NCBI GenBank assembly: GCA_030280995.1
Contig: JASXTE010000005.1
Location: 21,170,501-21,234,500, forward strand
From: Hemileia vastatrix
Lineage: Eukaryota > Basidiomycota > Pucciniomycetes > Pucciniales > Zaghouaniaceae
DNA: 64,000 nt
Direction: 5' to 3'
Within the stretch, counting starts at the first letter, position 1; each line of letters starts with the position of its first letter. Under the pieces are notes generated by a model, which was not told the DNA's origin, did not search any database, and saw only the letters and a list, made by a program, of their open reading frames with translations. Made by a program: the position numbers and the translations under genes. Positions 386 to 40,371 of this stretch are shown piece after piece.

Positions 386-786
386 GTGAAATGTGTTGAG
401 TATGATTTTTCAGAACATTCATTTCAACCAGTTGTGGGACTATTAATGGTACCACACTATGCAGGGCCATTAGGGTATTTAGTGGTTACAATTAATGGGA
501 AGCAGATCAGAGCGCTAGTAGATACTGGTTCTCAGATAAATGTAGTTTCTGCAGAGGATGCTGTGGATTTAGGTTTTCCACTAAAGGATGGCAAAGGAAC
601 TGTGGAAGATATTGGAGGTGGTAGGTTACTGGTTATAGGGGTAGCTGAATATGTGAAGATGCAAGTTGCGGGAGCATCAAGAGATCTACACTTTTATGTT
701 CCTATGGGTGTAGTGAAACCAGTTTTGGGAAACCCCTTTTTGATGGATTATTCTGCAACAATAGATTATTGTTTGAATAAGACTAT
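386..786 (+). pseudogene. Gypsy-2 protease region, left half (split by the giant transposon)
   Basis: Remnant of the Gag-Pro reading frame of an old Ty3/Gypsy retrotransposon. A retropepsin core is visible: LGYLVVTINGK, then the active-site ALVDTGSQINVVS, then PVLGNPFLMDYSATI. The same blocks occur in the Gypsy-1 protease (LGYLVVTLNGK, ALVDSGSQINLIS, AVLGGPFLMDFEARI), so the two elements are relatives. The open frame runs on to 979, but the residues after base 786 come from the inserted transposon terminus. The rest of Gypsy-2 resumes at 40372 on the same strand. The start is not resolved: codons upstream of the first ATG also look like protein, so this is the inside of a longer frame. Confidence 0.85.
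784..786. other. Target site duplication TAT, left copy
   Basis: TAT lies immediately outside the left terminal inverted repeat and is repeated immediately outside the right one at 40369-40371. Three-base duplications are typical of CACTA/EnSpm transposons. Confidence 0.85.
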
Positions 787-825
787 CACCACAGAAAATT
801 TGGGGGGTATTGCTAGCAATACCCC
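787..825 (+). repeat. Left terminal inverted repeat of the giant transposon
   Basis: Starts CACCACAGAAAA and ends with a perfect 22-bp palindrome at 804-825 (GGGGTATTGC, its centre at CTAG, then the mirror image). It matches the reverse complement of 40329-40368. Confidence 0.9.
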
Positions 826-1680
826 TCATTTAAAAATGTTGGGAAGTGGTTGGAAAGCTGTTGGAAGGCTGTTGGGAGTTCATTGTGAAACCAGATTTAA
901 ATTAATTGGACAAAGATTTGGTAATCAGTTAGACCTAGGTTCAACCAAACTCAATCACAGGTTTCTTGGAGCTTGGTGATTACTTTGATTTTGAGCTGAG
1001 CACAGATTGAGCAAAGCTTGAACATATCACTTAACATATCATAATATTCACTTTCCCATCTTGTGGAAGGCAAAATTTGATATTCGTTCTAAGAATATCT
1101 ACATATATTTTCTTGCCAAGTTGGTAACAGAAGGTTAAACTGTAGTATCTCAATTATTACACTAGACTACATAGATATTTGATAAAACATACAATTCAAA
1201 TCAATTTTAATATTATCGAGATCACCATAAGTGTCTTTCCAAAGACTTACAAAAAGTATGTTAGTATCAAGACATCGTTCTAGGTAGTAGTTTCAATTTG
1301 GATTTTGAACTGACATCTAAAGCATTTTACTATTAGACAGAAACATAAATAAGTGTAATAAGAGTGAAATTATTCTATTTTGTGATTATAATGTAACAAT
1401 AAAGCACATTTTTATTGAGAAAATTTTTCTTCCTCCACAAACCAAAATTTACTCTATAGGCTCAAGATTTATTTTTAAGCCATATTATTCATTTCAGTTA
1501 TCATTGATTTACTTCCAATATTTATTAAAAAGATAATAATAATACATGTGAAAGAATTATGAGCTTAGCATAGCATATGCTAAAAAGTTATTTTGTCGTT
1601 TTATTCAAAACTGATTCTTCATTTTTTGCTTCAATTCATCTTTTAACAACCACTATCTTCAGATACTATTCTTACTTAAT
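826..1680. other. Left subterminal region of the giant transposon, no gene seen
   Basis: AT-rich sequence between the left terminal repeat and the SNF2 gene. I see no open frame with protein-like composition and no clear short repeat. It presumably holds the SNF2 promoter and transposase-binding sites, but nothing in the sequence shows that directly. Confidence 0.4.
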
Positions 1681-2223
1681 ATGTCAAGTCTCAGATGTGT
1701 TGGAAAGTTCTCAATAACAATCGATCAAATTTATATGAATGTAATTTCAAGATTTCAAAACTCACCGACCCCCACGATTTTACAGCGAGGCCATTTGAAT
1801 GTTCATATTTTTGGACTATTTGAAGAAAGAAAACCAACCCTTGTCGGTAATCTTTCTCAAGTGCAGAGTCAGCACATTGGACCACTATTGGGTGATATTG
1901 GCTCTGGATCTCACCATTTAAACCAAAGAAGTGCCTTGAATCCTATAAAGCCTTTCTATTTTCATGCTTACTTGGTTCCAGTTTTTGGTAATCAGTATCA
2001 ACTTTGGGGATGCCTCTTTTCTTCAAGTACACTAATCAGTCTTGCTAAAGAAGCATTTTCTTCTGCACAAATCAATTTATGTCCAATCCTGAACTACAAC
2101 TCCACTATCTTTTTTAATATCCCGCATGTAATTTTTGAAGGCTCTTTCCAAATATCTCAGAGTACTCAAGATTGGAAAGCTGATCAACTTATCCGAGGAA
2201 TCAAAACAGTTCTCAAAACACAT
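1681..2223 (+). pseudogene. SNF2-family helicase, N-terminal part (cut by Gypsy-1)
   Basis: Open frame of 181 codons from an ATG at 1681 up to the Gypsy-1 insertion; the codons after 2223 belong to the LTR. The last residues (VLKTH) join in frame, across the 4-bp duplication ACAT, to QLQAINFM at 14862, giving the HQ..A..FM block that normally precedes the first ATPase motif of SNF2 proteins. I recognise no domain in the N-terminal 180 residues, so the family call rests on the C-terminal half. ATG 1681 is the first methionine of the frame; upstream exons cannot be excluded. The gene lies about 0.9 kb from the left end of the giant transposon and reads inward. Confidence 0.75.
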
Positions 2224-3353
2224 TATGGTAAGGTAAACTCTTACAGTCGCCTTGCTGTAAGCAGAATCCGGAGGAGATGTGTGGATTTAGCTGAAAACCC
2301 CGTCCTTCCAATAAAATAACAAAATGGGAATTCTAAATCACTAAGCTAACCAATCTACTTGAATCTGATTGATAAAAATAATGAAACTCTAAAATAATTA
2401 ACGCTTATTGAGATTTAAAGAAAGTGGCTGTTGATAAAGAAATACTGATAACAACAATTAAGGTGTACCAGTGAAAGATCTGTAAAGATTGACTTTTATG
2501 TTTTTATAATAATTTGAATTTTTATGAGACAGCAATAATCAAGTCCCAGCGACAAAGACCTTTCTAAAGATACCCTGTATGAAGTGTTATTTAAACTGTT
2601 GAATTGTATTTCTAAAATGTTATGTAAAAATAATAATGTTGTAAGGGTATTACAAGTTATTTTAATTTGTTGAGTAATAAAAAAAATGAGACTGTGGTGG
2701 TTAAAGATTAAGCTGTATGATCTGTCCCCCTTTCAATTTCGAGTTTGAGAAGCACTTAAGTATTCCTAGTTACGTGCCTAAGTTTTCCCCTCCAGAGCTC
2801 TTCCAGAGTCAATCCGGAGCCGGTACGGAGTCCGTACGGAGCCGGAACGGAGTCCGTACGGAGTCGAAACGGAGTCCGTCCGGACTTCCGGACTCAATTT
2901 AGAACCTTAAAACCATAATAAAAAATCTAGAAAAATTACACATAATAGAGCTACTTCCCCTTTACATACCAAACTAATTTTCGTAGTCTTCGCAGCTCTA
3001 ATTACCCCGTGAAAATTCATCAAAGTTAAGTAATTTTTGAAAACGTAAATATTTCTATAAAACTTTAAAATTCATTTAAAAATATAAGAAAAATAGTAAA
3101 AATTCTGGGAAAATTTCCCAAGGTTCTTGAGTGACTCGACTTAATACTTATAAATTTTTTAGACAGTAAAAATAAGTTTTCTCCGTAAAATAAATTGTTT
3201 CGTGTAGGCATTCACTCGTGACCAATTTCTTCATATTTTAAACTCCAATAAATTAAATAAAACCCTTTTATAAAAAATAATAACGCCAATCTTGCATGCC
3301 GTGATAACTCCATTTACATACTTGGGTGCCGTACTAAACTTTAGGCTACCACA
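2224..3353 (-). repeat. Gypsy-1 3' LTR
   Basis: 1130 bp, almost identical to 13717-14857. In element orientation it begins TGTGGTAGCC and ends ACCATA, so the outer dinucleotides are TG and TA rather than TG and CA. A GC-rich patch at about 2815-2890 consists of short imperfect repeats of CGGAGTC; the 11-bp length difference from the other LTR is one unit of that patch. A purine-rich tract abuts the inner edge in element orientation (complement of TCCTCCCTCC, 3354-3363), the expected polypurine tract. Confidence 0.93.
3267..3280 (+). promoter_or_regulatory. TATA box for the antisense gene, inside the Gypsy-1 3' LTR
   Basis: TTTTATAAAAAATA on the + strand, about 200 bp upstream of the ATG at 3477 and inside the LTR. 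Transcription would start within the LTR, antisense to the retrotransposon. The flank is AT-rich, so this box alone is weak; its support is the matching arrangement in the Gypsy-2 tail and Gypsy-4. Confidence 0.45.
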
Positions 3354-3476
3354 TCCTCCCTCCAATCGAGAATGTCCCCATTCTTAAAACTTTGCATAAG
3401 TGGTCGAACACAATATTCATCTTTAACCTTCAACCACCATCTTCTTTAATCAACTATAAAATTAATCTTCATCAAT

Positions 3477-4169
3477 ATGTCTTCCAAAGAACTTGTCGCT
3501 CCATGTGAACTCTGCGCTCGATACCAGGTACCTTGTTTAATGTCCAACCCTAATCTTCCTGGCAGAACAGCTTGCGACTTATGCCGTGTGAAAAAAGTCA
3601 AATGCAACCGGCCAATAGTTCCTTCTAAAACAAACGTATATTTAGGACCAGCAGCTCTCCCTGATCCCTCAACTTCTAAAAAGCGATCCAAAATTCCTGT
3701 CTTCTTAAAACGAATAAGATCAAAAACAGCTTCAAAAGTTCAATCTTCATCAACGGATCCCGGCCTAATTTTGCCTTCACAAGATCCTAATCCTATAACG
3801 CCAGTACCCCCAACTAACTTTGCTGAGACTATGTTTCCTGGCTCTAAATGTAAGACCCTATTTATCTTACTAAAAAAAACTTTTAATCAAAATTGACTAA
3901 ACCTATGACTTAATAACATATTTGAACTTCTAGCTGTCGAAATAACCAACACTGATGATGTTGGTAGAGTGAAGACGGACTATATCAATCATTACCCAAA
4001 TTTTCATCGCTATCTTTTTCTTGACTTTACTAATGAGTTGAAACGAAAAATGCTGGCCTATTTTCAAGAAACTCCAGCTAATAACCATGAAGACCTCATG
4101 AAAAGAAGGATTTTAGTGCAAAGCTTTGATAATGATGTTGAACAATTTCAAAGAAATTATCTTTTCTAA
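3477..4169 (+). CDS. Antisense cysteine-cluster (Zn2Cys6-like) protein of Gypsy-1
   Basis: Two exons (3477-3849 and 3934-4169) joined by an 84-bp GT-AG intron give an intact protein of 202 residues, on the strand opposite to pol. Residues about 10-42 hold six cysteines spaced C-x2-C-x6-C-x12-C-x2-C-x6-C. That is the fungal Zn2Cys6 spacing, but the basic CDLCRVKKVKC half, normally first, comes second. A Lys/Arg-rich stretch (SKKRSKIPVFLKRIRSK) follows, then a Ser/Pro linker and a helical, charged C-terminus. The composition suggests a nuclear DNA- or RNA-binding protein; that is inference. Similar cysteine-cluster genes sit in the same antisense place in the Gypsy-2 tail and Gypsy-4. It begins only 124 bp inside the LTR. 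Confidence 0.75.
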
Positions 4170-6741
4170 CAGTATAACTTGATAAAATTTTGTTTTTGCT
4201 TGGTCTTCTTAAACTTTCAACATAAATGATGTTTTCTTTCTTCTCTGGCCTGATATAAAATAAAATAAAATAATATAAATCTTGTGATGATTCCACTACT
4301 GAGAGCAAGGTTTGAATCCCTTCAGACTCCCATATACCAGTCTTCCTTCTTGTCACAGCATTGAGAGAGTGGATCTTCCTATGAGCCGAATACTCCTGAT
4401 TCCAACCTCATAGGGCCCCCCACTGAGCCGAATTCTATGATTCCAATCTCGCCATAAGGTCCTCCAAGCTTCACACCAAAAAAAATGGCCTAACTATGAG
4501 GCACTAAAAAAAATCATTCCCTAAAATCCAACTACCATCCTAGCTTCTGATTCCTTCATCACAATTTTCAAACTTTGCTATACAGCAAACCCATAAAATA
4601 CTTTTGCCAGGCTTCCAATAATAATATCAACTTTAGACCATGTTAAAGCGCCACAAATTTCACCTAATTAACCATTATGCTTTCTTTAGCATCATCACCA
4701 CCTAAAATTTTAACCTCCTAAAGCTTATCAGCACCCAATTCCAGAAATAATTGAATAACCAGTTTAGAGTCTTAGGGGACAGTGATAAATTAAAAGATTG
4801 AATTGAGTTATCCAAACAAGATTGACATTCCAATTTAAAGTCTTGGTAGACCAAACATATAATCGATTGCCAGTTTATGGTCTTGGTGGACCAAAGATCG
4901 TTTAAGTGCATAAATATCTTGATATATTCCTAAGTAAGGCCTAGGCTTGACCAAAGATTGAATAAATTTGATAATCCAGTTTAATGTCATAGTGGACCAA
5001 ACATTTGATCGATAAGAAATCCAGTTTTAGGTCATGGTGGACCCAACAGCTTGATAACAGTCCAGTTTAAGGTCTTGGTGGACCTAACATTTGATTTATA
5101 TAAAAAGAAAACCGTCTCCGAAAAAATCCATAGAATCTTGAACGTCTTTTAATTTCAGTTTAAAGTCTTGAAGGACTAACAGCTCCAATATAAAATCTTT
5201 AATGACCGTCTTGAAAATTAGCCAGTTTAAAGTCTTGGAGGACTAACAGCTCCAAAATTTGTATAAAACCTTAAGGAAAGTCTTGAACAGTAGCCAGTTT
5301 AAAGTCTTGGAGGACTAACAGATCCAAAATATGTATAAAAACCTTAAAGAATGTCTTGAACAGTAGCCAGTTTAAAGTCTTGGAGGACTAACAGATATCT
5401 TGAAGTAAAATCCCATTGGTATTGAGTTCTCCTAGACCCTGTTTCCTGTCTAAACTAAATAAATAAATCTAAAAAGAATGAAGACTGAAAAACAAAACTA
5501 AGAAATATAATAATAATTTTGATTTTAATTAATTAATTAATTTTTTTTTTTTTTTTTTTTTATTTATTTTTATTTTTATTATTTATTTTATTTTTATATT
5601 TATATATTTTTTTTTTATTTTTTATTTTTTATTTTTTATTTTTTATTTTATTTTATTTTTTTATTTTTATTTTATTTTATTTTTTTTTTTATTTTATTTT
5701 ATTTTATTTTTTTTTTGAATTTAAAATAAAAGATTTTAGAAAAGATAGTTTTGAAATAAAAGTTAAAATTTAATTTTAAAGAAAGATAAAAAAAGTACTA
5801 AAAAAAAAAATAAAATTTTAAAATAAAATTTTAAAAGATGCCCCCCCGGCCATTTGATGAGCCGTACCCTCGACATCATACCCACATCCAAGTGCAACTT
5901 GATGTGGTTACACAATTTTTAGAAATTGAAAAGAAAAGAAAATAAATGAAAGTTTTTAGAAGATAATTTTTATAATGATGATCACTGGGTGGGCTCCCTC
6001 CAATTTATAAAAATGATTAGAGACCACCAGTGAGCATCACCTTTACAATAATTCATAATACATATTAAAGAAAAGAAATCACAATCTAACATAAAAAAAT
6101 CAAAAACAAAATAAAATAAAAAAATCTTGAATCCGGCGTTGAGAGCGGTGTCTCTTGATTTGTTCCAGTTTATAGTCTTAGTGGACTTCCTAAAATTAAA
6201 AGACAAAGCCAGGATTCAACTAGAAACAGGGAAAATTTTGGAAACAAACATTATGGGGTAATTGTGTATAGAGCAGCCAGCCCATCAATTACCCCCACAC
6301 TTGCCAATATTAAATTAAGAAGGTTCCCCTGTGAACACTTCTTCCAATAAATTTTAAAATTTTTCTCCAACACTATCTTCACCCATATTTTAAGAATTTT
6401 AAGTTTTCGAAAATTTCAAAGAAGGTCTTCTTGTATTTCGTTATGTTTCATCACAGTTTCGTTGTCCATATACAGTATAATGATAGTAAAGTATTTTGAT
6501 AAAAAAAGAAGATAGTTTATCCTCGTTGCGGAGGAATCCATAAAATTTCGTAGATATCATAGTTTATCCTCATTGCGGAGGTATAAATTTAATAAAAGTC
6601 ATTAAAATTGTAGTTTATCCTCATTTCGGAGTTGATAAAATTTAAGAAATTTCATAGTTTATCCTCATTGCGGAGGAATCCATATAATTTAAGAAATTTC
6701 ATAGTTTATCCTCATTGCGGAGGTATAAAATTTAAGAAATT
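4170..6741. other. Gypsy-1 3' untranslated region: stem-loop repeats and low-complexity DNA
   Basis: No gene seen. At 4759-5394 there are ten copies of a short motif CAGTTTA followed by a hairpin such as GGTC-TTGGTG-GACC or AGTC-TTGGAG-GACT, with one more at 6162-6188 and a tandem run of six from 6506. Between them, 5520-5830 is a long run of T with A interruptions (TTTTA-type low complexity). The interval around 4370-4470 has two imperfect copies of a segment beginning TGAGCCGAAT. Confidence 0.8.
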
Positions 6742-6762
6742 TCATAGTTTATCCTCATTGCG
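6506..6762 (-). repeat. Six tandem stem-loop repeats at the end of pol and in the 3' UTR
   Basis: Six units of about 45-50 bp each contain AGTTTATCCTCATTGCGGAG or a close variant. In element (minus) orientation each is a stem CCTC...GAGG closing a CGCAAT loop, followed by ATAAACTA. The first unit in element orientation is also translated as the expected last codons of pol (LRNEDKL then stop at 6742-6744) once the pol frameshift is allowed for. Confidence 0.85.
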
Positions 6763-6857
6763 GAGGAAGACTTCGGCACTCCTGGTGCCTCTAGGATAGA
6801 ACTGTTTCACTTGATCGGCCGCTACCCTCTTCTTCAATACTACTCCATCCAACTCTT

Positions 6858-9800
6858 CTAGCACATATGAACCGCCGGAAACTTGCTCCTTGTTTTATAC
6901 GGTCCATTCCACCTATCTGCAAACATTTTTCCCCACTGACTTTCCAAACTCCTATTATACACCAGGACCATATCTCCTGGGTTCAAAGGTTTCCTTAATC
7001 GATGTGCCAACCGCTCATCCCAATATCTAACTGATTGATTTCGGATCTTCATCATCCGCGAATATGCCTTTTCTAAATATTCTTCTTTCTTTTCTAGCTG
7101 CATCATTCTTGCACACAATAATTCTTCAGTAGTTTTGACCGTGTCCCAGTCAACTCCAAGATATGATTCAGCTTCTAAATCAACCGGTAAAACTGCTTTC
7201 TGTCCAAAAACAAGTTCATAAGGTGAAAATCCGGTCGTCCTTTTGGCAGTGATTCGATCAGCAAATAAAACTAAAGGTAAATAGTGCCTCCACTTTTCGG
7301 CACTTGTCCCACACATTTTAACTAAAGCATCCTTAATAACTTGATGCCCTCTTTCAACCATGCCTTCAGCTTCAGGATAATATGGGGTTGCTACCCTAAC
7401 CTTTGATCCAACTTTCAATACGGCCTCTTTAAACTCTGTCCCAAATTCAGGACCTCCATCTACCGTTACCAACTTCATCACCCCATACCTATATACCCAA
7501 TTATTCAAAAAAAATTCTGCCACATTTTTGGCAGTTAAATTAATAAGAGGCGCTGCCTCTACCCAACCAGATAAATCATCTCTGGCCACAATTAAATATT
7601 TATACCATCCCTCTTTTATATGAACGGCATCTAAACTAACTCTTCCAAAGAGCGTATATTCACCGGTCGCGCGTCCAGGTTCTTTTGGCCTTAAATAACT
7701 TCGTCTTTGACATTCTTCGCATGACTGAACCCACTGTTTAACAGCCATCTTCATGCCAGGCCACCAAAATCGATCAGAAATTCTTCTAAACGTTTCTCCA
7801 ACGCCTCTATGCCCGAGATCTTCATGCAGTGATTTCAAAACTAATTCTTGCCCCTTCTGTTGAGTTATAACTACTTGAGGATTTGGATACCTCCTCCTCA
7901 TTAAACGTCGACCAGATAGGTAAAAGGTAGATGACTTCCTCTTGATAGCCACCCATTCATCGTCTTCACAATCTTCTGGCCTCTCTAAAGTCAACAAATA
8001 TTTGACTAACAAAAAATAAAAACCAGTCTGACCCCAGACTTCATCTTGAAAATCGATTAATATAACATCAATAGGGACTTCTCTATCACCAATATCACCT
8101 GCACATGAATGAGCCAATAATTGTTGACCCCTAAATAAATCTTTAATCGAGCTATGTCGACGTTTTTCTTCTGAACCTTTGGATCCTTCAAAAACCGTAT
8201 TTGAAAATACCTCTTTCTCTTTATCCACCTTTTTATTTAAATTCTCTAATTCTCCAACATATACACCATTCCTTAATTTACTACTATCCCACACTACCAA
8301 TCCATCTTCCTCTACATACACCACATCTTCTTCTACCTCCTCTCTGCCGAATTTATCTACACCTTTTTCAACACCTTTATTAACATAAAAACTATTTTCC
8401 AGTTTATCCTCTTGGTGGAGGTCATCATCATCATAATCTAAACACAATAGTCCTGCCAGTTTAACCTCATGGGGGAGGTATGGAAAGTCTTCAGCTCCTT
8501 TAGTGCTGGCTTTGATAATAGGTATATCTTCATCGAACTCTTCTGAGTCTGAATCTTCTTCAGTGGGTGGTCTCCTTGATAAACCATCTGGCATAGTAAA
8601 AGTTTTGCCAGGCTTATGAACTAAATCAAACGAAAAATGTTGAATAAAAGCTACCCATCTCGTCATGGGTGCATTCGGTAAACTTGGGGAATTAATCATC
8701 TGGATTAACGATTTTGCATCCACTTGCAACTCAAAATGTTGCCCCCACAAAATATGCTGAAGTTTCTTCAGTATTTTCGCCACACCACATAATTCCAATT
8801 TTGGTTGAGAATATCTTGATTCGACCTCAGTAAATACTACAGATTCATACCTAACTGGCCTGATGTAACCAGCTTTATCCATCTGAGACAAAACCGCCCC
8901 AGCTGCAACCTGACTTGAATCAACTGCTAAATAAATTCTGCCAGAATCTTTTCCATAATCCAACTTGTGCAGGACTAAATCCTTCCCCACAACCTCCTTC
9001 AACTTCACAAATGCCTTCTCACACTCTTCATCCCACTCCCAGTCTGCATCCTTTCTCGTTAACCGTCTCAATGGAGCTGCCAATGAAGAAAAGTCCTTGA
9101 TAAACATTCTAACATATATGCAAATGCCTAAAAACCCTCTAACTTCGGTCGTATTCTTGGGTCTTGGCCAGGACTGAATTTTTTTAACTTTCTTCTTGGA
9201 CATAATCCTACCCTCTCTACATACCACATGGCCTAATATTTCTAAGGCTGGCACACAACATGAAAATTTTGAACCTGAAATAGTTAAACCAGCCTCTTCA
9301 ATTCGAAACAAGATTCTTTCTAATGTAATTGCAAATTCCCAAATGAATTTGCGTATCCCGGGATTCTCTTCCAACACCTGGTTATCATAGTTGGTTGTTG
9401 GTCCCTTAATTCCTCCATCATCTATAAAGATTCCAGCATATTGTGGAATTTCATCTTGAAGTATCCAAGCCATCTGTGCTTGATAAACTGCAACCGAATT
9501 TGTTGCTCCTTGAGGTAATCTTGTTAACTGTAAACGTCCAAGTGGTGTATCGAATGTAGTGAGAGGTCTTGAGTCCGGATGTAACTCTCTCTCATCATAT
9601 CCACCCATAATATCTCCCAAACCATAACACACTCTCCCTGAAAATGCTTCAACAAACTCCTCAGCACTAGGCGGTATCCCAGCATCCTTTATTGTAACCC
9701 TATTTAATTCCCTAAGATCATGAACAACTCTAAGCTTGCCATTCGGTTTCTTGATACAAAATACAGGACTAGAATAACTTGATGTTGATTGCTCATACAG

Positions 9801-10952
9801 TCCAGTGCGTATCCGTTCTCTGACAACTTCAATATAGGCTTCTTTTAATGCAGCCGGAATAGGAATTGGTTTCTGCTGCCACGGTTCATGACATACCACA
9901 GGAATCTTGTAAGGCTCCCCATAGGAATGCTTCAACACACCCCTCTCCTCTTCTACAAAAGCAATGGCCTTCTCTCGCTTGACCATCACATCCAACAACA
10001 ACTTCTTCTCTTCTCCAGACAACCAACCATCAGGTCCAAAATTAACAACACCCAATCTCTCAAAAGTGATTCTTGATGTCTCAGAAAATTCAGGCGGATT
10101 CTTTACCAAGGGACTTTCATAAGGATCTCTTGATAACCTTGGTCTTCTCAAAGGTGGATTTAATTCAGCAGGTAGCAGTTCATTAATAGGTCGAACTTTA
10201 TTTGCTACTTTCTTATATTTGGCTGCGTCCACTTCTAAATTAACTTGAGGTAAAACATTTTCTTTTGTATCGCCATTAAAACTTTCATCAAATGAATCTT
10301 CTTCATCGCCAGAATCAGAATAAGAAAAATTAGAAAAATATTTTATTTCATTTTTAAATTTTACCCTTTTCTCCTTTCCCTCGTCTAATTTATAAACAGA
10401 TTTTCCAACACCTTTGCTTCCCTTATCCAAAATTAAATCACCTGTAAAGAAAGTCGGCAGTTTAACCTCTTGCTGGAGGACCGGAATAGCATTTTCACAT
10501 AAATTATTTTTTTGGGTTTTAATTATACTGAGATTTTTTATCGGATTTTGATGTGATATTTGCAGTTTACCCTCTTGCTGGAGGTCCATAATAGAAGGAG
10601 ATAATTGCAGTTTAACCTCTTGCTGGAGGCCCGTAATAGAAGGAGATACTTGCAGTTTAACCTCTTGCTGGAGGTCATAAAACATACCCTTCCAATTTTT
10701 ATCCAACCTAATTTGGCCCATTTTGCCTTTTTCACCGTTTTTAAAATTAATAGAAAAACCGGGTAAATCCAATAAACATTTAGAAAAGTCCAAAACGTAT
10801 TTGCACTCCAAAGTAATATTAACAGAAAATAATTGAGAATCCACTTGAATTATCTCCAAGTGAGCTGACCTATTGCAATCCGGGATCTCATCCTGAGGAG
10901 AGATTACAACATTAGAGCGATCAGCCCCTGCTACCCCAAAAAATGAGGGCAT
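6858..10952 (-). CDS. pol: Gypsy-1 Pol: reverse transcriptase, RNase H, integrase
   Basis: 1364-codon frame. RT: LPQGATNSVAVYQ and the catalytic FIDDGG box. RNase H: IYLAVDSSQVAAGAVL. Integrase: an H2C2 zinc motif (HEDLGHRGVG ... CEECQRR), then the DDE residues in SLDAVHIKEG, TVDGGPEFG and EAEGMVERGHQ. There is no start of its own: it overlaps the protease frame by 22 bases and is entered by -1 frameshifting. Near the N-terminus lie repeats LQQEVKLQ, which are the coding form of the stem-loop motif. Near the C-terminus, a one-base deletion in an A run (about 6893-6896) diverts the frame to a stop at 6858. Without it, the protein would continue through GGSYVLEEL and FYPRG to 6742, as the related Gypsy-2 does. 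Confidence 0.95.
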   Translation of the reverse strand: MPSFFGVAGADRSNVVISPQDEIPDCNRSAHLEIIQVDSQLFSVNITLECKYVLDFSKCLLDLPGFSINFKNGEKGKMGQIRLDKNWKGMFYDLQQEVKLQVSPSITGLQQEVKLQLSPSIMDLQQEGKLQISHQNPIKNLSIIKTQKNNLCENAIPVLQQEVKLPTFFTGDLILDKGSKGVGKSVYKLDEGKEKRVKFKNEIKYFSNFSYSDSGDEEDSFDESFNGDTKENVLPQVNLEVDAAKYKKVANKVRPINELLPAELNPPLRRPRLSRDPYESPLVKNPPEFSETSRITFERLGVVNFGPDGWLSGEEKKLLLDVMVKREKAIAFVEEERGVLKHSYGEPYKIPVVCHEPWQQKPIPIPAALKEAYIEVVRERIRTGLYEQSTSSYSSPVFCIKKPNGKLRVVHDLRELNRVTIKDAGIPPSAEEFVEAFSGRVCYGLGDIMGGYDERELHPDSRPLTTFDTPLGRLQLTRLPQGATNSVAVYQAQMAWILQDEIPQYAGIFIDDGGIKGPTTNYDNQVLEENPGIRKFIWEFAITLERILFRIEEAGLTISGSKFSCCVPALEILGHVVCREGRIMSKKKVKKIQSWPRPKNTTEVRGFLGICIYVRMFIKDFSSLAAPLRRLTRKDADWEWDEECEKAFVKLKEVVGKDLVLHKLDYGKDSGRIYLAVDSSQVAAGAVLSQMDKAGYIRPVRYESVVFTEVESRYSQPKLELCGVAKILKKLQHILWGQHFELQVDAKSLIQMINSPSLPNAPMTRWVAFIQHFSFDLVHKPGKTFTMPDGLSRRPPTEEDSDSEEFDEDIPIIKASTKGAEDFPYLPHEVKLAGLLCLDYDDDDLHQEDKLENSFYVNKGVEKGVDKFGREEVEEDVVYVEEDGLVVWDSSKLRNGVYVGELENLNKKVDKEKEVFSNTVFEGSKGSEEKRRHSSIKDLFRGQQLLAHSCAGDIGDREVPIDVILIDFQDEVWGQTGFYFLLVKYLLTLERPEDCEDDEWVAIKRKSSTFYLSGRRLMRRRYPNPQVVITQQKGQELVLKSLHEDLGHRGVGETFRRISDRFWWPGMKMAVKQWVQSCEECQRRSYLRPKEPGRATGEYTLFGRVSLDAVHIKEGWYKYLIVARDDLSGWVEAAPLINLTAKNVAEFFLNNWVYRYGVMKLVTVDGGPEFGTEFKEAVLKVGSKVRVATPYYPEAEGMVERGHQVIKDALVKMCGTSAEKWRHYLPLVLFADRITAKRTTGFSPYELVFGQKAVLPVDLEAESYLGVDWDTVKTTEELLCARMMQLEKKEEYLEKAYSRMMKIRNQSVRYWDERLAHRLRKPLNPGDMVLVYNRSLESQWGKMFADRWNGPYKTRSKFPAVHMC
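8398..8480 (-). repeat. Two stem-loop motifs inside pol coding sequence
   Basis: Centred near 8410 and 8470, in the linker between RNase H and integrase. In the coding strand they are CCTC-CACCAA-GAGG-ATAAACTGG and a variant with CCCCAT as loop; they encode HQEDKL and PHEVKL. The equivalent linker of Gypsy-2 (42537-42693) holds diverged copies. Confidence 0.75.
10451..10675 (-). repeat. Four stem-loop motifs encoding LQQEVKL repeats at the start of pol
   Basis: Four copies of CAGTTTAACCTCTTGCTGGA or a close variant, three of them spaced about 48 bp apart. In the coding strand each is a CCTC-CAGCAA-GAGG hairpin followed by TTAAACTGC, and translates as (L)QQEVKL or QQEGKL. Confidence 0.85.
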
Positions 10953-12652
10953 TCATCCCCTTCCAACAAACATAATTCACCAGAAGCCGTCCGTTTAATA
11001 TGCCGCTTCTTGGTGCAAACACAACACTGGCACAGTGTAGTAATCCCTGGCCGTGTTTCCCAACCTTCATCTCCAGGAGGCGCTAACCGCATATGTAACC
11101 TCCGCATATCTTCACCAGTGATCTCCAAACTAATCCCCATGCCAGCTTGATACCCTATCCTGGCCTCAAAATCCATCAAAAAAGGACCACCAAGAACAGC
11201 TTTGACTGCTCCTCTGGCCACATAAAAGTGAACCTTACCAACAGATCCACCAATGCCTAACCTGAAATGCTCAGCAGTACCCATCAGCTCTGTTGCATGC
11301 CCTCCAATACCTCTGAGGTTTCCCCCAGTTCCACTTTTAATTGGCAAGCCTATACTTGTCGCTTGCTCCAATGAAATTAAATTAATTTGAGACCCTGAAT
11401 CGACCAAGGCCTTTACTTCTTTACCATTAAGAGTTACCACCAGGTAACCCAGGGGAGCGGAAAAATGTGTATCTACATCTTCCCCAAACTTTTCAGCATT
11501 TTCACAAATATATTCCACCTCTCCAGTGGAAACCCGACGCCTCGTCAAATGCTTCTTTTGCTTTTCAGCAAGCGCCGGACTAATCGTAAATAACTCCCCC
11601 AAAGATAAGGGAATCTGAAGTTGATTCACCCTATTCAAAACTGCGTCCATCGCATTAGCTTGACCGGAAACTACTGGCCGCTCATACTGGACCTTTGATT
11701 TAACAACCTTGGCCCTGGGTACCTCTTGAGGTCCAACCGAGCCATCTTCACCCCCCATTATAACATCTTCACTTTCTATAACCCTAACTCCGTCACCAGC
11801 TTCTTGCACTAATCCTGATCCATCGCTAGTCCTTCTTACACCCTCCATTGGGATGGGACCGCTAAAACTTGGTCTGGGTAGAGACGCCAACGGTACGTCC
11901 TCCTCAGAATCCGAATCATCCTCTGGCATAGGCTCACCATTTAAATCAAACTTGCCATAACTAGGGGGCCCCATATCAGCAATCCCCTTCTGCATTTTAT
12001 ATAATTCGTCCTTAGAGTAAGGGTTCAATTTGTTGGCGGCAGTTTGAGCACTAGAAATCTTGTCCTTAGAGTAAGGGTTCACTTTGTTATTGGCCTTGCC
12101 AGGATTAGCCCTCAATTGGCTCTGAATGCTACTTTTCGCCTTAGTAGCAGCTGCTCTTCTAGCAGCATTAACATCATATTCGCCAGCCATACAGCTACCC
12201 TCCACCTGGGCAACCGTCGCCAGCTCTAAACCACCAAAAGAAGTAGAGAACGTGGCTTTACTGACCTCTTTCTCCTTACCTTTGTCAGCTTTTCCACCAT
12301 TACCATTACCATTTTTGCCACCCTTGGCATTAACATCTTCATCCGTCACCTCTTCAAATCTGGCTCTCCTTTCAGCCGTTAAACTTCTTCTGACCAAATC
12401 AGAAGGAGACTGTCCATCACTGGGCTTGATGAACGAACCATCGGGAAATTTATAAACTTTACCATCGAATAAAACTCGCCCAGCATCCATATCCTTATCA
12501 AGAGCAAAACAAACTGTTGCTCTGTGCCCTCTCCTATTACAATAGGAGCACACCTTTGGCTCATCATAGCCACCTCTATAATTACTACCACCATTCCCAC
12601 CATTTCTCCCATTGCCTGGGAAGCGGTTACCGTTGTTATTGCCATTATAATT
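10931..12652 (-). CDS. Gypsy-1 nucleocapsid zinc knuckle and aspartic protease
   Basis: This frame continues Gag after an in-frame TGA at 12653-12655. It opens with a Gly/Asn-rich stretch, then a CCHC zinc knuckle CSYCNRRGHRATVC, a low-complexity Lys/Asn and acidic region, and a retropepsin with ALVDSGSQINLIS and PFLMDFEARI. A second cysteine cluster (LCQCCVC) lies near the end. It terminates at 10931 in the overlap with pol. Because it shares the Gag frame, the natural product would be a single Gag-Pro protein if the TGA were read through or were an inactivating mutation; the sequence cannot distinguish these. Confidence 0.85.
   Translation of the reverse strand, partial: NYNGNNNGNRFPGNGRNGGNGGSNYRGGYDEPKVCSYCNRRGHRATVCFALDKDMDAGRVLFDGKVYKFPDGSFIKPSDGQSPSDLVRRSLTAERRARFEEVTDEDVNAKGGKNGNGNGGKADKGKEKEVSKATFSTSFGGLELATVAQVEGSCMAGEYDVNAARRAAATKAKSSIQSQLRANPGKANNKVNPYSKDKISSAQTAANKLNPYSKDELYKMQKGIADMGPPSYGKFDLNGEPMPEDDSDSEEDVPLASLPRPSFSGPIPMEGVRRTSDGSGLVQEAGDGVRVIESEDVIMGGEDGSVGPQEVPRAKVVKSKVQYERPVVSGQANAMDAVLNRVNQLQIPLSLGELFTISPALAEKQKKHLTRRRVSTGEVEYICENAEKFGEDVDTHFSAPLGYLVVTLNGKEVKALVDSGSQINLISLEQATSIGLPIKSGTGGNLRGIGGHATELMGTAEHFRLGIGGSVGKVHFYVARGAVKAVLGGPFLMDFEARIGYQAGMGISLEITGEDMRRLHMRLAPPGDEGWETRPGITTLCQCCVCTKKRHIKRTASGELCLLEGDECPHFLG
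10937..10943 (-). promoter_or_regulatory. -1 ribosomal frameshift site between protease and pol
   Basis: In the coding strand the heptamer is U UUU UUG, positioned as X XXY YYZ in the protease frame (codons CAU UUU UUG) and two codons before the protease stop at 10931-10933. A -1 slip there reads directly into pol (FFGVAGAD). Pol has no independent start and the two frames differ by exactly -1. Confidence 0.8.
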
Positions 12653-13540
12653 TCAACGTTCATACCCTCTAGACTGATAAGAAGTCGACGTCGATGAAGA
12701 AGCGATTGGGGCCTTGTTGGCCTTCTGGGTTTCTTGAACAAATATTTTTAATTGTTTAGTTAAATCGGCCAGGTGATCGACCATCTTATTATCCACATTG
12801 CCCTCCACTTTAGCAGCAGGTAATCCCATTTTTGCCTTCTTGGCCTCCTGGGCTTTGACCATAATATCGTTGTTTTCGGCCAAAACCTCGCTAACCTTGC
12901 TAACATATTGAGTGCAAGACTCTTGATATTTGTCCAACGCCAATAACTTTAGATGGGCTTGAATGTTGTCCTTGATAACCTCCAGAGCCGGCAGTTTCTG
13001 CTCACCATTAGGCAGTTCCTTCATCAAATCTTTTCTTGAAAGATCCTTCAAGACGTCCATACGAATATCCCTGCTGCATGCTGTCCAAAACAAATCTTTT
13101 GCTTGGTTCTCATGCACTAACTCGTCCACCAGTATGAGATATTCCACCACTTCATCAAACTGAACACAGAGATTTTTGAAGTCAGCCATAGAAGAAACTC
13201 CACCTTTTGCTTGCCAGTCTCCAACAATTTTATTGAGGTCCATCATAGTAAACCTAACACCCCATCTATCAACCATAGCTTTAGAAAGCTTAACCCAATC
13301 CTTGTCCTTGAATGCCTGCATAGCAATAACCTCTTTTTCCACCTCCCTATCGGCAATAAAAAATCTAACTTGCTTCACCATATCCACATGGGAAGCACCA
13401 TCAACAGCAGCAGCAGCTTCATACCTGCTAATGAACCATTTAACCTCCTCCCCATCAAACTTTGGGCCATCCCAAGAAACAATTCTAACTGAGGGAGTAA
13501 GAGGGTTAGAAGATCCAGAAGCAACAGCAGAAGAAGACAT
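12653..13540 (-). CDS. gag: Gypsy-1 Gag
   Basis: 295 codons from an ATG at 13540. The N-terminal Ser/Ala-rich leader is followed by a helical capsid-like region with SWDGPKFDGEEVKWFISRYEAAA, and Gag-type signatures such as a conserved W...K..F and MADFKNLCVQFDEVVEYL. It ends at a TGA directly before the Gly/Asn-rich segment and zinc knuckle, which remain in the same frame. Gag forms the particle that packages the element's RNA. Upstream, 13541-13716 is the leader, with two copies of AAGCCTCTTGCAGGC that fold as small hairpins. Confidence 0.88.
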   Translation of the reverse strand: MSSSAVASGSSNPLTPSVRIVSWDGPKFDGEEVKWFISRYEAAAAVDGASHVDMVKQVRFFIADREVEKEVIAMQAFKDKDWVKLSKAMVDRWGVRFTMMDLNKIVGDWQAKGGVSSMADFKNLCVQFDEVVEYLILVDELVHENQAKDLFWTACSRDIRMDVLKDLSRKDLMKELPNGEQKLPALEVIKDNIQAHLKLLALDKYQESCTQYVSKVSEVLAENNDIMVKAQEAKKAKMGLPAAKVEGNVDNKMVDHLADLTKQLKIFVQETQKANKAPIASSSTSTSYQSRGYER

Positions 13541-27566: not shown

Positions 27567-29996
27567 ATGTCTAGTATACAAAATCCTACACCTCCACTTT
27601 GTATGTATATCATGTTCCTCTCTCTTAATTTATATATTTCACTTATGTTCTATATCTTTTTTTTTCAAAAATTTTATTTTCCAGCACCCAAATGTGTTTC
27701 ATCCCACTCTCTGATTGATACTCGCTTTGAAGCTTTTGAGCTTGCACCATGTCTGCCACATGGCATGGCACCTAACCCTCCTGTACTTAGCAATGAGAGG
27801 CAGGAAATAACAAGAGTTCAGTATCGCAATTTACTTGAATTGGCTAGAGATAAAACAGAAGAGCTTGTCAAGATCCTTAACAATAATCCTTCTCCTTCAT
27901 ATTTATCTAACCCTTGTAATGACTTACTCCAATATGTGAAAAGCCTTGAAAAATGTATGTTCATCACCTTTTTTGTCTCCTTTTAAATTAGTAGATAAGA
28001 TTATTAATATTTTTTTTCTTCATATATATTTGTAGCTTATGAGGAGGGTATGATTCCTCCTGATGAAGTCATTGTCATTAGGGATGATGATGAGACAGAT
28101 GAACCATCAGCTTCAACTCATGCTTCAACTTCTAAGGAAAATCTTGAAACACCTGTTATCCGCTCCAAGAAAAAGAGATTATCCCAAGGCTCCTCTTTTG
28201 TTCGACGTATTAAACCGGCTTCTGCTAATGAATTTTCTGATGTATCAAATAATAAATCTCAAAAAAAAAGCAAAGGTTTTGATAATGAGTATATTCTTGT
28301 TTCCTTTTTTTTTATTGTTATTCTTTTATCTTTAAAATTCAATCATATATCTCTTTTATTTCTTACATATTCTACTTTTTTTCTTTCTTTTGATATTTTG
28401 TACCAGAAACTCACCTGCTGTAGATTGTTCCATCCATAAATGCCCTCTCCCTGATGAAGATGATGAAAAGAGCAATGAAAATAGTGATGATCAACTGTCA
28501 GAATATGAAGCTATGCTTGTTCATCAAAAAAAGCAAAGTTTAAAATCTTCTTCAAGACATGTTGATATGTTTGATAAAGATGATGATTCAAACAGCTCAT
28601 CACCAAATTCCTTCATTTCTAAGAAGCAATACCCATCACCTCCTAAATTACCTACTTTGACCTCTTTGAAAGCTTCTCTACCAATGAAATCAACTCCAAT
28701 CAAGATATCGAAAAAACCTCTAACTTATTCACCCTCAGTTCTAAAAGAATCTGATTTGCAGGAGGAATTCTGTAAAATTCATAATTTTTATAAAGGTAGA
28801 ATCAGCACGGCAAAGGTCCTCAGGTCGTGGTTGGAAATTGTTACTCTCCTCAAATTACGCTCTTCTACTTCTTCCCAAGAACCCATGTCAAATATTCCAA
28901 TGTTTACTTTTTATTGGGAAAAATCTTGTGGAGAAGATTGGCTTTCAAAACTTACTGAGTTATGTAAGTTACCATAATTTTTAGTCTTGACTTTTGTTCT
29001 TTTACTTATTTTTTTTTTCCTTTTGTAGCAAATATTTTTTTAGAGATTGATAGCTCACGGCTATGGGTACTCGATAATATTGATTTCAAAAAAATGAAAG
29101 ATTTATGTGATCCTGATGGTTTAAATACTGAAATTCTTTCCTCAACAAAGAAAACGGATCACCCTGAATCCAATCTTATCCGAATGCTCATGAGATTAAT
29201 GATCCCAAGTGACCACTGCCGTTCTTCATGAGTATCTCTTATATCATCTTCACTTTATCTGACCGCACATGAATTCAGCCAGCTTCCATCACATCAAAAC
29301 ATTAACCCAGATTGTCCAATTGAACGTGGTCTTCAGCTTCTAGCTCACCTTTCAAATCTGAAGAGTCCGATTTCTGATGGCTTAGAAGTTGGTCCCACTG
29401 CACTTCAAACCCATGATATATCAATGTCAACTCTTCTTCAAATCAGCAATATTATCATTGATATAATTATGTCAATTATCATTCTTAAATCAAAATATTG
29501 TGCTGCAACAATATCAAGTGGCAAGACTAGTGAAGCTCAACAATCAAGTGAGAAAAACAAAAATACTGAACTGACTATAATGAGAGAGAAACAAAAGGCT
29601 GCACTAAACAAAATAAATTCTGAATACTCCCACCACCGATATCAATCTTTCACATTCTATATAATTGATGGTGTCCGTGGTTTATTTCTGAGCTCTCAAG
29701 ATCATAGATTGGCTTCAGCAGCTGATTGCTTGGAGGTAATATCAGAAGTTAAGTTTCTTAATTTACATGAAAAAAAAAATCATTTGATGGAAGAAATAAT
29801 TTGGAAAAATTTAAATAACTATATTTTAACATTAATAAAACCTTTTATAGGCAAGTGTGATCCATTTCCTTTAAAATTTGATACCCCAAGTCCTCCGGGA
29901 ATTACTAGGGCTATTTCTGCAGATTTTCTTAATCACTGGAGCTCCATTCAGCCAGTATCACCTTTTTTTGCTAAACATAGCCTTTCAATAAATTAA
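27567..29996 (+). pseudogene. Multi-exon cargo gene of unknown function
   Basis: Five exons with consistent phases: 27567-27600, 27685-27954, 28036-28288, 28407-28963, 29029-29996. The predicted protein is about 690 residues: a short N-terminus, a helical segment (YRNLLELARDKTEELVKIL), an acidic and Ser-rich central region with basic patches (RSKKKRLSQGSSF, KSQKKSK), DCSIHKCPLPDEDD, then a more ordered C-terminal half. I do not recognise a domain. A TGA at 29229-29231 (CRSS, stop, VSL) breaks the last exon; the frame otherwise continues to 29996 through a possible hydrophobic stretch ISNIIIDIIMSIIIL. It lies between the palindrome array and the oxygenase, reading toward the latter. Confidence 0.6.
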
Positions 29997-30794: not shown

Positions 30795-31980
30795 TTATAT
30801 ATCTAGATTTTTTAGATTTGTCTTAACATTAGATAAATAATACTTTGCTGATTCTATTTCTTCCTCTATTAAGTCATCTCTTTTCAAAAAAACTCTCAAA
30901 GCACTAATCAAATATTCTAACCTAAATTTTTCTTTTTTAATTTCTAAGTATTCTGAAATATCAATATCAAAAACATTAAGCTTTTCTATAGCATGAAAAA
31001 GTCTAGTGCTGATTTGAATAGAAGAACCTATCCTAGTGAAGCCAGGAATTTCATGACATCTTGAGGTGAAATGCCTTAGTTGATTGGCAGGCCATAATGT
31101 CACTGTTATTCCATTAGTTGCTTCAAAGTTGATTTTACTTTGAATTTTGGGAAACATAAGTTCTCCACCTATTTGTCGTGGTTGGGTCTTATCATACTTC
31201 ATATGAATGGTGTTTTTTTCTGTATCTTTAGGAAAAAATATTCCTAAAGTATACTCACTTGCATCCTTACTGAGATGAACCTCATTAGAGAACCCATTAC
31301 CATTCCCTCCAGATGTCCAAGTTAAATTACTAGCAAACGGTACACCCTCTTCTTCACTAGAAACTTTTGAAAATCCAGGAATACCAAGTTTTGCGCAAAG
31401 ATTAGTTGCCTCATTGTACTTTACATATGATATTTTTTTAAAAAAATATTCAAAGTAGATTTCAATCCTCTTCATTCATTTTTTATATTCATCCGTTTTT
31501 ACAATATCATCAGTGAATTCATCTGCAAGGAAAAGCATTCAAAAATTCAGTATTTAAATTAAAAAAAGTGATACTTACGAATATGTAAAGATTTCTTTCT
31601 ATCTAAAATAAAGCCACCACCAAACATTTTTCCAAAACCACCAGCTCTTTGATGATAACCATTATTTTTAATTTCATGTTCGCAGTAAGAAAGATCCTTA
31701 ATGCATCGCACCGTAGCTTCTAACATATCTAGTTCTTTGAGCTCATGAATTTCAAAAGTCTGCACAAGAACATTAGGTATTAAGACACCTTTTGGTTTAT
31801 AAATACTACATCCAGGAAAAAAATTGTAATAATTATTGCAATCTGTCATATTATTTGCATAAGATCGTGCATAGAAATGTGGCTTCTTCCCGTTTGTATC
31901 CATTCCAAGAGCGTTTACAAGTTTCATTCCAGTAGCAATGTCTTTCGCCCACCTATTGTTAGAGTTCTTCCCTGGCCGTT
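30795..31980 (-). pseudogene. Tet-like 2OG-Fe(II) oxygenase cargo gene
   Basis: Two exons on the minus strand (about 31927 or further upstream to 31579, then about 31526-30795) with a GTAAGT donor and TTGCAG acceptor. The order of blocks GFGKMFGGGFI, NLTWTSGGNGNGFSNEVHLSKDASEYTLGIFFP, GGELMFPKIQSKI and LWPANQLRHFT follows the Tet-like 2OG-Fe(II) oxygenase family expanded in rusts, where H-x-D and a distal His bind iron. Here the H-x-D position reads HLS, so the metal Asp seems lost, while the distal H of LRHF is present. A TGA just before MKRIEIYFEYFF (about 31476) breaks the frame, and an extra A in a 10-A run near 31980 shifts an upstream ATG out of frame. Related enzymes oxidise methylated bases; activity of this copy is unlikely. 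Confidence 0.6.
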
Positions 31981-33750
31981 TTTTTTTTCAAATCGTTACT
32001 CATTGATGGTTCAATCCTATGAGAATTCAATTTTGATTTAAAATAGAAAAAAATCAAAAAATTAGAAAATAGTAACATAATTTCAATTATCAGTCAATGA
32101 TACCTTTAACTTTATCATATCTTCAATATTAGAAATACAAAAGTTAGCATATCTACATATTAGTAAATTTATATACTTTTTCTTTATTTCAAATATTAAG
32201 AAAGCGTTTCAAAGGTATACTTTATTAAATTATACATATAAAGAGTATAGCTTTATCCTGTATGCATTCAGCAAGTACGAGATTTGGCTCTACACTTAAT
32301 ATTAATAATATAATGAAAGTATAACTCCAATAAACTAGTAATATTAAAAAATTTACGGAATTATGATATCCACATATATAAAATGAAAAATCTTGCTCTG
32401 ATCAATATATTGACTTAGAAAGTTATACTTCAATAAATTATTAATTTTTAAATTGTAGCATTGTCCTGTATGCTTTCAGCAAGTACGAGACTTTGAAACA
32501 ACTTAAAAATCAATAAATTAAAGGTAAAGTACAAACAATCTAATTATTATTATGAAAAGCAAAACATTATCCTGTATGCTTTCAGCAAGTACGAGATGAT
32601 GTTTTACTTTTCATATTAATAATATAATGGTTGAGAAAGTATTAAAGAAATATAGAAAAATGATAAGCAAAACATGAACTTACATGTCTATAAAATCTTC
32701 TTCCATTTGTAGCTGATTGATCAAAATTAATTATAAAGTTTATTTTATAATCACTGTTTTAAAAAATAAATGGTTAGATAAATAAATTGAACATTTTTGA
32801 TAAGGAATAAAGAAAAGTAAATTGACAAACAAATAAAAAAACTTTAAGTTAACTGAAAAAGAATTATTTTATAATGAATCGAAAGGGTACAGTAAAAGAT
32901 ACCATAAAAATAAATTCAGAATTAGAATCATTAGATTAACTTGTCAAAAGTGTAAAAAAGTGTAACAAACCAAAATGATATGAAATGCAATAGCAAGAAA
33001 AATTTGCTTACCAGTAATCAGATAAGGTCAAGAAAATAGTACCAATAATTCAAAATGATAAAGCAAAAATATGATTGATAATTTTTGAAAAAGGTAAGTG
33101 AGAAAGAGAAAGGAAAAATAAATTGGGTGGTAAACAGATGTATATATCATGAATTTTCACTGATCACATTTTCAAAAAAATGCAGCTCTCCAAGTCATAT
33201 GATAAACTTCATCTAAATTCCAAGAATGATGTTGCCAAGGCACTGTACACAGCATGATCATTTTTTCCTATGCATATACTAATTCCAGCTAGAATTTACT
33301 TGGCTGCATGTTGTACAGATGCACATTTGTGGAACACTGAATTTCACATCTAAAAAAAATTGACGCCACATAATTCTAGCTACCATGTTTCACGTAGCTA
33401 AAAAACATACACTCATCACATTTAAATTTACATTGCGCCAAAATTAATTCATTTTTGAATTTTTTTAAAGGAAACTATAATGTGCACCACCTATTTCTAA
33501 AATATGAACCTCCGCACCATATTAAATTGGGAGACTTTTAATTATGCAATTTTTTTGCCGTGACCTTTTTCCTGATCTTACTTGGTTCAAAATATTGAAA
33601 CATGGCCAATGTTGATGAAAGAAACATTTGATTTTGTTTCTATGTGTAACAATGGAAGGCTGTTTCTTACTGGCTGAAGAGTGTTGTATATTTTATTTGA
33701 ACAAATTTTTATTTTTTTATGTATTTTATTTAAAAAATTTACTTTTTATT
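31981..33750. other. AT-rich region upstream of the oxygenase
   Basis: No further gene seen. Contains three copies of a conserved 30-bp motif (32253-32596) and otherwise irregular AT-rich sequence. Confidence 0.4.
32253..32596 (+). repeat. Three direct repeats of a 30-bp motif at about 105-bp multiples
   Basis: Copies at 32253-32282, 32461-32490 and 32567-32596 share CCTGTATGC[A/T]TTCAGCAAG plus TACGAGA. The start-to-start distances are 208 and 106 bp, that is about two units and one unit. The core is itself an imperfect inverted repeat (GTATGC ... GCAAGTAC). They lie upstream of the minus-strand oxygenase gene, so promoter elements are possible. Confidence 0.8.
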
Positions 33751-34490
33751 GCAGCCAGATTTATACTGGCTGCTTTTTAGAAACCTTAATTTATGACCCA
33801 AGCCTTTGAAATTGGCTTGGGTCCCTTACATTGCAATTTAGTACTTCCAGCCAGGGGAAACCTGGCTGGAAGTGTCTCTTTCAAGCAATCGAAGTCGCTA
33901 AAAGCGACTTCGATTGCTTGCTGTAATGTTTGCCACCCTCCCAGCTAATTTACTAGGCTGGGAGGTGGCCAAAGCAGTGTGCAACGCGCGTTGCACAATC
34001 GCTACCATATTTCATGCAGCTGATATCAAGTCAGCTGCATGAGATATGCGCAGCATGTGCAATGCGTGCTGCATGCAGCAGAAACGCGTGTTGCATGCAG
34101 CCTGCATTGCTGCTGCATGCAACGTGCATTTCTGCTGCATGCAATGCGCATTACTTGCAGCAGCGATGCGTGTTGCATGTGCTGCATGCAGTGCATTGCA
34201 CAGCCAGTTTTTTTCTGGCTGTGCAATGCACACAGAGAAACCAAAGTCCCTGCAAGGTACTTTGGTCTCTAAAATGGAAGCGACTTTCCCTACCAGGTGC
34301 AATCTGGTGGGAAAGTGAGAGAAACGTTAGACCGAAGTTGTTTGAAAGCAACTTCGGTCTTAAAAACATTAAAAATCATAAAAAAAAATGAGAAATGTAG
34401 AAAAAAAAAATTAAAAATAAAAATGTGAGTATAAGAAAAAAAATAAGTTCTAGTGATACCAAAAATCCAAGCCAATTTCATTTGGCTTGG
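33751..34490. repeat. Cluster of 13 different hairpins
   Basis: Consecutive inverted repeats with different arms and short loops. Clear ones: 33751-33773, 33795-33823, 33843-33873 (13-bp perfect stem), 33882-33920 (18-bp perfect stem, 3-base loop), 33932-33969, 33979-33996 (18-bp palindrome), 34013-34041, 34071-34142 (about 31-bp imperfect stem built of TGCATGCAG units), 34191-34231 (17-bp perfect stem, T7 loop), 34234-34270, 34283-34316, 34329-34360 and 34467-34490. The block is GC-rich compared with the AT-rich DNA on both sides. Open frames across it are by-products of the TGCATGCAG composition. Confidence 0.9.
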
Positions 34491-36644: not shown

Positions 36645-36683
<39 letters not shown>

Positions 36684-39600: not shown

Positions 39601-40328
39601 AAAATATCCCAAATAAGGTTTTTGTGGGTCAATTTGGATTTAAGTAGGATTAAGTGAGGTTTAATAAAGGACAGATAAAAGGCTAAATTCATTACTAGTG
39701 ACTTTTTTCTCAAAATAGTTATAAAATATGTATCATTCTGGAATCAAGCTTCAATAAAGTTGAATTGAAACAGAGATAATTTCTAGCAGCACAACACCAT
39801 ATTTACAAAGGTGTAAAATACCTCAAATATTACTCATAATATAGGAAGGCAAGGAATCTACAAAATTCACATTTCAAACGAGGATTTATATTTTGAATTT
39901 GAAATTGAGAAATGGAATATTATTTTCCAATTTAAATATCTATTAGTCATTTTACCAAAAGTTTTCAGTAATCAGATTGAATTTTGATGGTATTTTGTTG
40001 TAGATTAATCATTTTGATGAGACATTTACTCAAAATTACTGGTTTCGTTTCTAATATTCCATGTGAAATTCATTACGAATCTTTTTGAAAGTGAATAGTT
40101 GACATATTGGATATGCAAAAGCTTATGTTAGATCAAAGTGAGATCAAAGGGAGTTTAACTGATGATCAAATTAGGATTTTACAAGATCAAACGGTGATCA
40201 ATGTAGGTTCATCTTGAGCTCAATTTGTGACAAATCTCTGACTAAATGTAAGGCCAAACAATTTCCTACATGGTGATGATGTGTGCATAATTCAAGCATA
40301 GATTTGTGGCTCAACGGAGTTCAAGCAA
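34491..40328. other. Gene-free right arm of the giant transposon
   Basis: About 5.8 kb without a protein-like frame, very AT-rich and visibly poor in CG dinucleotides. Contains (AT)n tracts at about 36648-36676 and 38393-38421. Near the right end, 40125-40205, GATCAA occurs five times in 80 bp, which could be subterminal binding sites. I see nothing else that is organised. Confidence 0.6.
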
Positions 40329-40368
40329 GGGGTATTGCTAGCAATACCCCCCCATTTTTTCTGTGGTG
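40329..40368 (-). repeat. Right terminal inverted repeat of the giant transposon
   Basis: Reverse complement begins CACCACAGAAAA and continues through a G run to the same 22-bp palindrome (40329-40350) as the left end. TAT follows at 40369-40371. Confidence 0.9.
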
Positions 40369-40371
40369 TAT
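40369..40371. other. Target site duplication TAT, right copy
   Basis: Matches 784-786; the Gypsy-2 sequence continues immediately after it. Confidence 0.85.

Follow-up and report, generated by a model that had tools for sequence, protein, structure and literature searches.

The question raised by this 64,000-nt stretch of the Hemileia vastatrix genome (the window, to which all coordinates refer) is what holds together some 39.6 kb of DNA that lies between two inverted ends and contains a transposase gene, several further genes and a retrotransposon, and what those further genes are for. The original prediction took it for a giant CACTA-like cargo carrier that was new in kind. The analysis given here points instead to one inactivated copy of a multi-copy 26.9-kb rust transposon of the EnSpm/CACTA type, and it is probable that two of its genes, encoding a SNF2-family ATPase and a TET/JBP-type oxygenase, are helpers that counter silencing.

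The element occupies positions 787-40368. Its inverted ends start with CACCACAG and surround a 22-bp palindrome, and the same three bases, TAT, stand on either side as a target-site duplication (784-786 and 40369-40371). The left end (787-826, forward strand) is composed of CACCACAGAAAA, a spacer and a perfect 22-bp palindrome (804-825), and the right end lies on the reverse strand at 40328-40368. In an alignment of end against end, 38 of 41 columns match, with two mismatches and one gap. The palindromic core, GGGGTATTGCTAGCAATACCCC, lies just inside each end and is found twice in the window and not once in 100 shuffles, with up to three mismatches allowed. The ends and their duplication are thus where they had been placed at the outset. 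As is typical of EnSpm/CACTA termini, the element starts with CAC and finishes with GTG (CACCACAG...CTGTGGTG); the classical CACTA pentamer is absent and the ends read CACCA.

The surrounding DNA offers a further argument. The transposon sits in a decayed Gypsy retrotransposon, whose interrupted protease frame had been said to rejoin cleanly and to regain its similarity to another Gypsy. Joining the flanks with a single TAT does give an open protease frame, which aligns without a gap over the joint with the protease of the Gypsy nested inside the element. This much of the claim stands, but control joins likewise stay open, and because the duplication is 3 bp long, the frame is kept with one, both or no copies of it and cannot count them. 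The decisive proof that the element is a unit comes from its sibling copies, not from the rejoined frame.

A 117-bp query covering the left end and starting with TAT was used to search the genome, and the best 40 of 1366 first-look candidates were scored. All 40 are 99-100% identical to the query, and as they were drawn from 1366 candidates, the family has at least 40 left ends. Right sides were checked for 39 copies, the window included (the one outside this count being C42:9575419). A matching duplication was found in 22 copies and a non-matching one in a single copy, and no right end lay within the stretch read in the remaining 16. The 3-bp duplication characteristic of EnSpm/CACTA elements is therefore present in 22 of 23 end pairs, as TAT (15), AAT (3), ATT (2) or AAA (2), with TAT over-represented because the query itself began with these bases. 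Among 20 further right sides, a right end was seen in 12 and none in 8, and for 11 of these 12 the triplet next to the left end is identical. For the last 12 copies, 481 bp were read where the right end was expected; it was present there in seven, all with matching TAT, and absent in five. The exceptional pair, on C579 (L048/L029), has ends without a common duplication and element pieces in inverted order, as at a rearranged or nested site. At another locus (L008, C42:9594992-9598107), the left end of one copy lies in Tnp2 sequence (97.9% identical) 21 kb downstream of a second left end in the same orientation, that of C42:9575419, an instance of self-nesting.

For six siblings (cA to cF), 30 kb each was fetched. 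Three are complete: cC (26,920 bp, TAT), cD (26,987 bp, AAT) and cE (26,984 bp, AAT); cA, cB and cF are interrupted or have their right end outside the fetched stretch. The interior was read throughout in the window copy, cC, cD and cE and partly in cA, cB and cF, most other pairs being represented by their two ends. Over the stretch read, the siblings are collinear with the window, in cC, cD and cE from end to end, and pairwise identity among the window copy, cB, cC, cD, cE and cF (cB and cF in part) is 98.2-99.1%. The window copy without its nested Gypsy measures 26,944 bp, in good agreement with these siblings and with the roughly 27 kb plus a retrotransposon first proposed. The copies elsewhere in the genome also bear out the proposal of one mobile unit with a Tnp2 transposase and further genes. 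The element has been mobile recently and moves as one unit of about 27 kb.

Six genes can be modeled between the ends, in the order SNF2 (+), X- (-), Tnp2 (+), X+ (+), Y (+) and a TET/JBP-type oxygenase (-). The splice models are our own reading of the sequence, with no RNA behind them. Five genes thus accompany the transposase, and the earlier figure of at least three cargo genes was right or low. The SNF2-family ATPase gene (1681-16687, forward strand; exons 1681-2223, 14862-15409, 15482-16102, 16180-16366, 16440-16594 and 16666-16687) matches PF00176, the SNF2-related domain, with E-values of 5e-24 and 2e-22, and its splice model yields a DEAH-YIKN motif. The transposase gene, Tnp2 (Transposase_21; 18926-22304, forward strand, three exons), matches PF02992 (E-value 1.2e-13), and ten homologues were found among 7992 scored candidates in the protein collection. 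In an alignment of 11 rows, from which homologue P0010 was left out for its 18% coverage, every row has the second D, the CxxC and the H, and only the window copy lacks the first D. Nine homologues have the D, CxxC and H positions in common with Tnp2; for a late E, a match by eye was made in just two rows, the C34 copy and P0002. This is the arrangement of a Tnp2-type DDE transposase with CxxC and H, as EnSpm/CACTA elements encode. At the far end of the gene array, the TET/JBP-type 2OG-Fe(II) oxygenase gene (30795-32003, reverse strand, two exons) matches PF20515 with an E-value of 3.6e-20 in the window and 2.3e-22 in a sibling. The TET exons occur in all six fetched siblings, and in cC, cD and cE they are enclosed by the two ends.

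The three other genes have no assigned family. X- (16731-17851, reverse strand) and X+ (22731-24396, forward strand, three exons) are paralogues: their alignment scores 139, where 200 shuffles reach 51 at most, and BLASTP gives E-values of 1e-5 and 4e-7 for the two parts. No Pfam match was obtained for two open reading frames of X- and three of X+, and no X+ homologue at an E-value of 0.001 or better was found among 7994 scored candidates in a protein collection that may lack rust proteins. The first exon of X+ (22731-23067) contains a proline/asparagine-rich stretch and differs in length among copies, by -6 to +24 bp relative to the window. Gene Y (27567-29996, forward strand) has at least five exons, and the splice model in a sibling predicts 693 residues; three of its open reading frames gave nothing above the Pfam cut-off, not every exon having been scanned. 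SNF2, X-, X+ and TET accompany Tnp2 in six of six fetched siblings, and Y falls within the collinear stretch.

The copy in the window is dead. Each of its six genes has a premature stop (a single one in SNF2), the TET gene also has a frameshift and, by comparison with siblings, an altered iron-binding motif, and conserved acidic residues have been lost from the transposase and from the oxygenase motif. SNF2 is open in three of the six siblings, and Tnp2, X+ and TET in one each. This is always the same copy, cC on C34, in which X- and Y are open as well, so that its 26,920 bp carry six open genes according to the splice models (among the siblings, stops in X- and Y were scored with corrected models in cC only).

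The copies also bear a mark of the host. Singleton substitutions were counted against the majority base in six aligned copies, with cA set aside as more diverged and interrupted and with cB and cF contributing in part. C>T or G>A events total 373, of which 212 fall on the 488 CpG sites and 161 on the remaining 7599 C/G sites; the reverse changes, T>C or A>G, number 164. By context, the CpG events fall on TCG (133 at 206 sites), CCG (35 at 93), ACG (26 at 116) and GCG (18 at 73). The copies are hypermutated at CpG, and above all at TCG. Repeats of Pucciniomycotina are hypermutated at TCG, as cited in a recent study (PMC12730594), and the pattern seen here is consistent with that. Given such hypermutation, the host appears to treat the element as a target of methylation, which fits, without proving, a counter-role for a TET-type enzyme.

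Elements of this kind have been described before. According to that study (Kojima 2025, PMC12730594), TET-bearing EnSpm/CACTA elements with CAC..GTG ends and 3-bp duplications occur in Puccinia striiformis, and other rusts, among them Austropuccinia psidii, have related EnSpm families; the TET proteins of transposons are proposed to counter silencing. The present element shares with them the ends, the duplications, the EnSpm-type transposase, the TET/JBP gene and the rust host. Since TET/JBP-bearing EnSpm/CACTA elements of rusts are already in print, the supposition that a Tnp2/CACTA version was new in kind has to be given up. A difference lies in SNF2, which goes without mention in the main text of that article (PMC12730594). 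Plavaka elements, according to the same source, have transposases of the same clade and occasional TET genes, yet they end in TGT..ACA or CATCA..TGATG with 2-3 bp duplications, unlike the CACCA ends seen here (PMC12730594). What the Hemileia element adds to the known pairing of Tnp2 with TET is an SNF2 ATPase and three genes without an assigned family, as a constant set. In the open-licence papers searched, no report was found of a CACTA element with both SNF2 and TET, or of one from Hemileia.

The additional genes do not vary from copy to copy, and the families of two of them work on DNA or chromatin; this gives them the look of helpers that belong to the element, not of variable host cargo. 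The family of the transposase suggests cut-and-paste chemistry. Tnp2 would cut at the CACCA ends, and the element would insert into A/T-rich 3-bp targets that become duplicated, bringing along its constant set of five additional genes. The most likely targets of the SNF2 ATPase and the TET/JBP-type oxygenase would then be the chromatin and the methylated DNA of the element itself, whose genes could thereby be expressed and whose ends would remain usable despite methylation-linked silencing and CpG hypermutation by the host. The family would be a natural test case for the ways in which fungal DNA transposons escape silencing based on methylation. It shows that a CACTA-type element of about 27 kb can be mobile as a whole. 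It is also a source of TET and SNF2 copies in the rust genome, which could otherwise be annotated as host genes.

A more elaborate version is a self-protecting giant CACTA element, in which SNF2 opens chromatin and the TET-type enzyme oxidises methylcytosine, perhaps recruited through an internal array of TCGA palindromes, such that the element moves despite TCG hypermutation. This can be put forward only tentatively. The array itself lies between X+ and Y (24595-26532) and comprises 19 copies of the palindrome ATTAATTTCGATCGAAATTAAT over 1.9 kb, with up to five mismatches allowed. These are 22-bp palindromes with a TCGA core, often spaced by about 85 or 102 bp, and the C34 sibling likewise has 19. 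They may form a binding array or give rise to hairpins. Closer to the ends, short subterminal repeats serve as binding sites in EnSpm/CACTA elements. A stretch rich in TTGAKC adjoins the right end (40108-40328), and the right 260 bp hold nine such motifs, as against two in the left 260 bp and a mean of 0.58 per 260 bp in the C34 sibling, for a motif that was picked after inspection. No 8-10-mer with at least five occurrences was common to the outer 700 bp of both ends.

Several observations weigh against the helper interpretation. The AlphaFold model of Tnp2, built from the 11 aligned rows, is poor (mean predicted local distance difference test score, pLDDT, of 47) and shows no confident fold. 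For TET, no homologue was found among 266 scored candidates in the protein collection, which may lack rust proteins, and comparison by sequence with solved structures gave nothing meaningful. One sibling, cA, stands further from the window than the others, at about 95-98% identity over its main pieces. Tnp2, X+ and TET are broken in five of the six fetched siblings, and SNF2 is open in only three. The ratios of nonsynonymous to synonymous substitution rates (dN/dS) over seven copies are 0.47 for SNF2, 0.59 for TET, 0.68 for X-, 0.82 for Y, 0.86 for X+ and 0.93 for Tnp2; they mostly reflect decay after insertion, and selection on the helper genes is seen weakly at best. The copies are hypermutated despite the TET gene. 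Finally, proteins of the SNF2 family have functions in repair as well, and the role of this one may therefore be different.

That last point leads to the most serious alternative, namely that the family is the same and SNF2 serves transposition itself, through DNA repair or replication after the excision of 27 kb, and not the opening of chromatin. Such an excision would presumably leave a large repair task, and RAD5, a repair ATPase, is the top match by E-value among solved chains for the middle exon of SNF2 (4.4e-11) and the second for its N-terminal part (2e-6), behind a snf2/rad54 family helicase (7.9e-7). The remodellers CHD1, SRCAP and ISWI, however, score nearly level with RAD5 on the middle exon, and the presence of a TET-type gene alongside SNF2 speaks for chromatin. 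A dedicated role in repair or replication is on balance unlikely, if worth keeping in view.

Far less probable is a carrier of the Starship sort, in which the extra genes would have been captured from the host for the host's benefit. Starships are giant cargo elements of Pezizomycotina that rely on a tyrosine recombinase and carry variable host cargo, and the large size and several non-transposase genes of the present element recall them. It departs from them in having Tnp2, inverted ends and a gene set that stays constant, with SNF2, X-, Tnp2, X+ and TET in every one of the six siblings and Y in the collinear stretch. The open reading frames scanned, which did not include every small one, gave no Pfam match to a tyrosine recombinase, and both recognisable extra genes suit self-help by the element. 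The framing as a giant cargo carrier is therefore better abandoned, and what is seen has the appearance of a transposon that is sufficient to itself and brings its own helpers. A helicase gene is reportedly carried by AcademH, DNA transposons of animals and fungi that are named as a lineage of Academ, another superfamily. A chance nest, in which unrelated sequence came to lie between two separate transposon ends, could draw on the nested Gypsy within a decayed Gypsy and on the mismatched pair on C579, but it is refuted by the sibling copies, which are collinear and repeat the matching 3-bp duplication at different sites in the 22 other pairs.

The remaining features concern retrotransposons and simple repeats. 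The nested Ty3/Gypsy element (2224-14861, reverse strand) has long terminal repeats at 2224-3353 and 13717-14857 and an ACAT duplication at 2220-2223 and 14858-14861, and encodes protease, reverse transcriptase, RNase H and integrase domains. It interrupts the SNF2 gene, whose exon is continuous in seven of seven sibling loci (L001, L002 and L004-L008, L003 being the window), so that the Gypsy came later. It is young: over about 1.13 kb, its two terminal repeats differ by six substitutions and a single indel of 11 bp. Within it, short repeats of the CCAGTTTAAGGTCTTGGTGGACC and ATAGTTTATCCTCATTGCGGAGG types occupy 4830-6768, with related motifs in the coding part near 8400 and at 10450-10690. 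Between pol and the left terminal repeat lies an additional open frame (3477-3896) whose CDLCRVKKVKCNR motif resembles Zn2Cys6 on visual inspection. Elsewhere in the otherwise A+T-rich transposon, words similar to GCATGCAGC recur in a block of higher G+C content at 33750-34390; the open frame that overlies this block is a little shorter in the C34 sibling. To the right of the element are other retrotransposon remains, with a Tf2-1-type SH3 domain at 49436-49996 and pieces of a Copia-type integrase and reverse transcriptase at 58416-60407.

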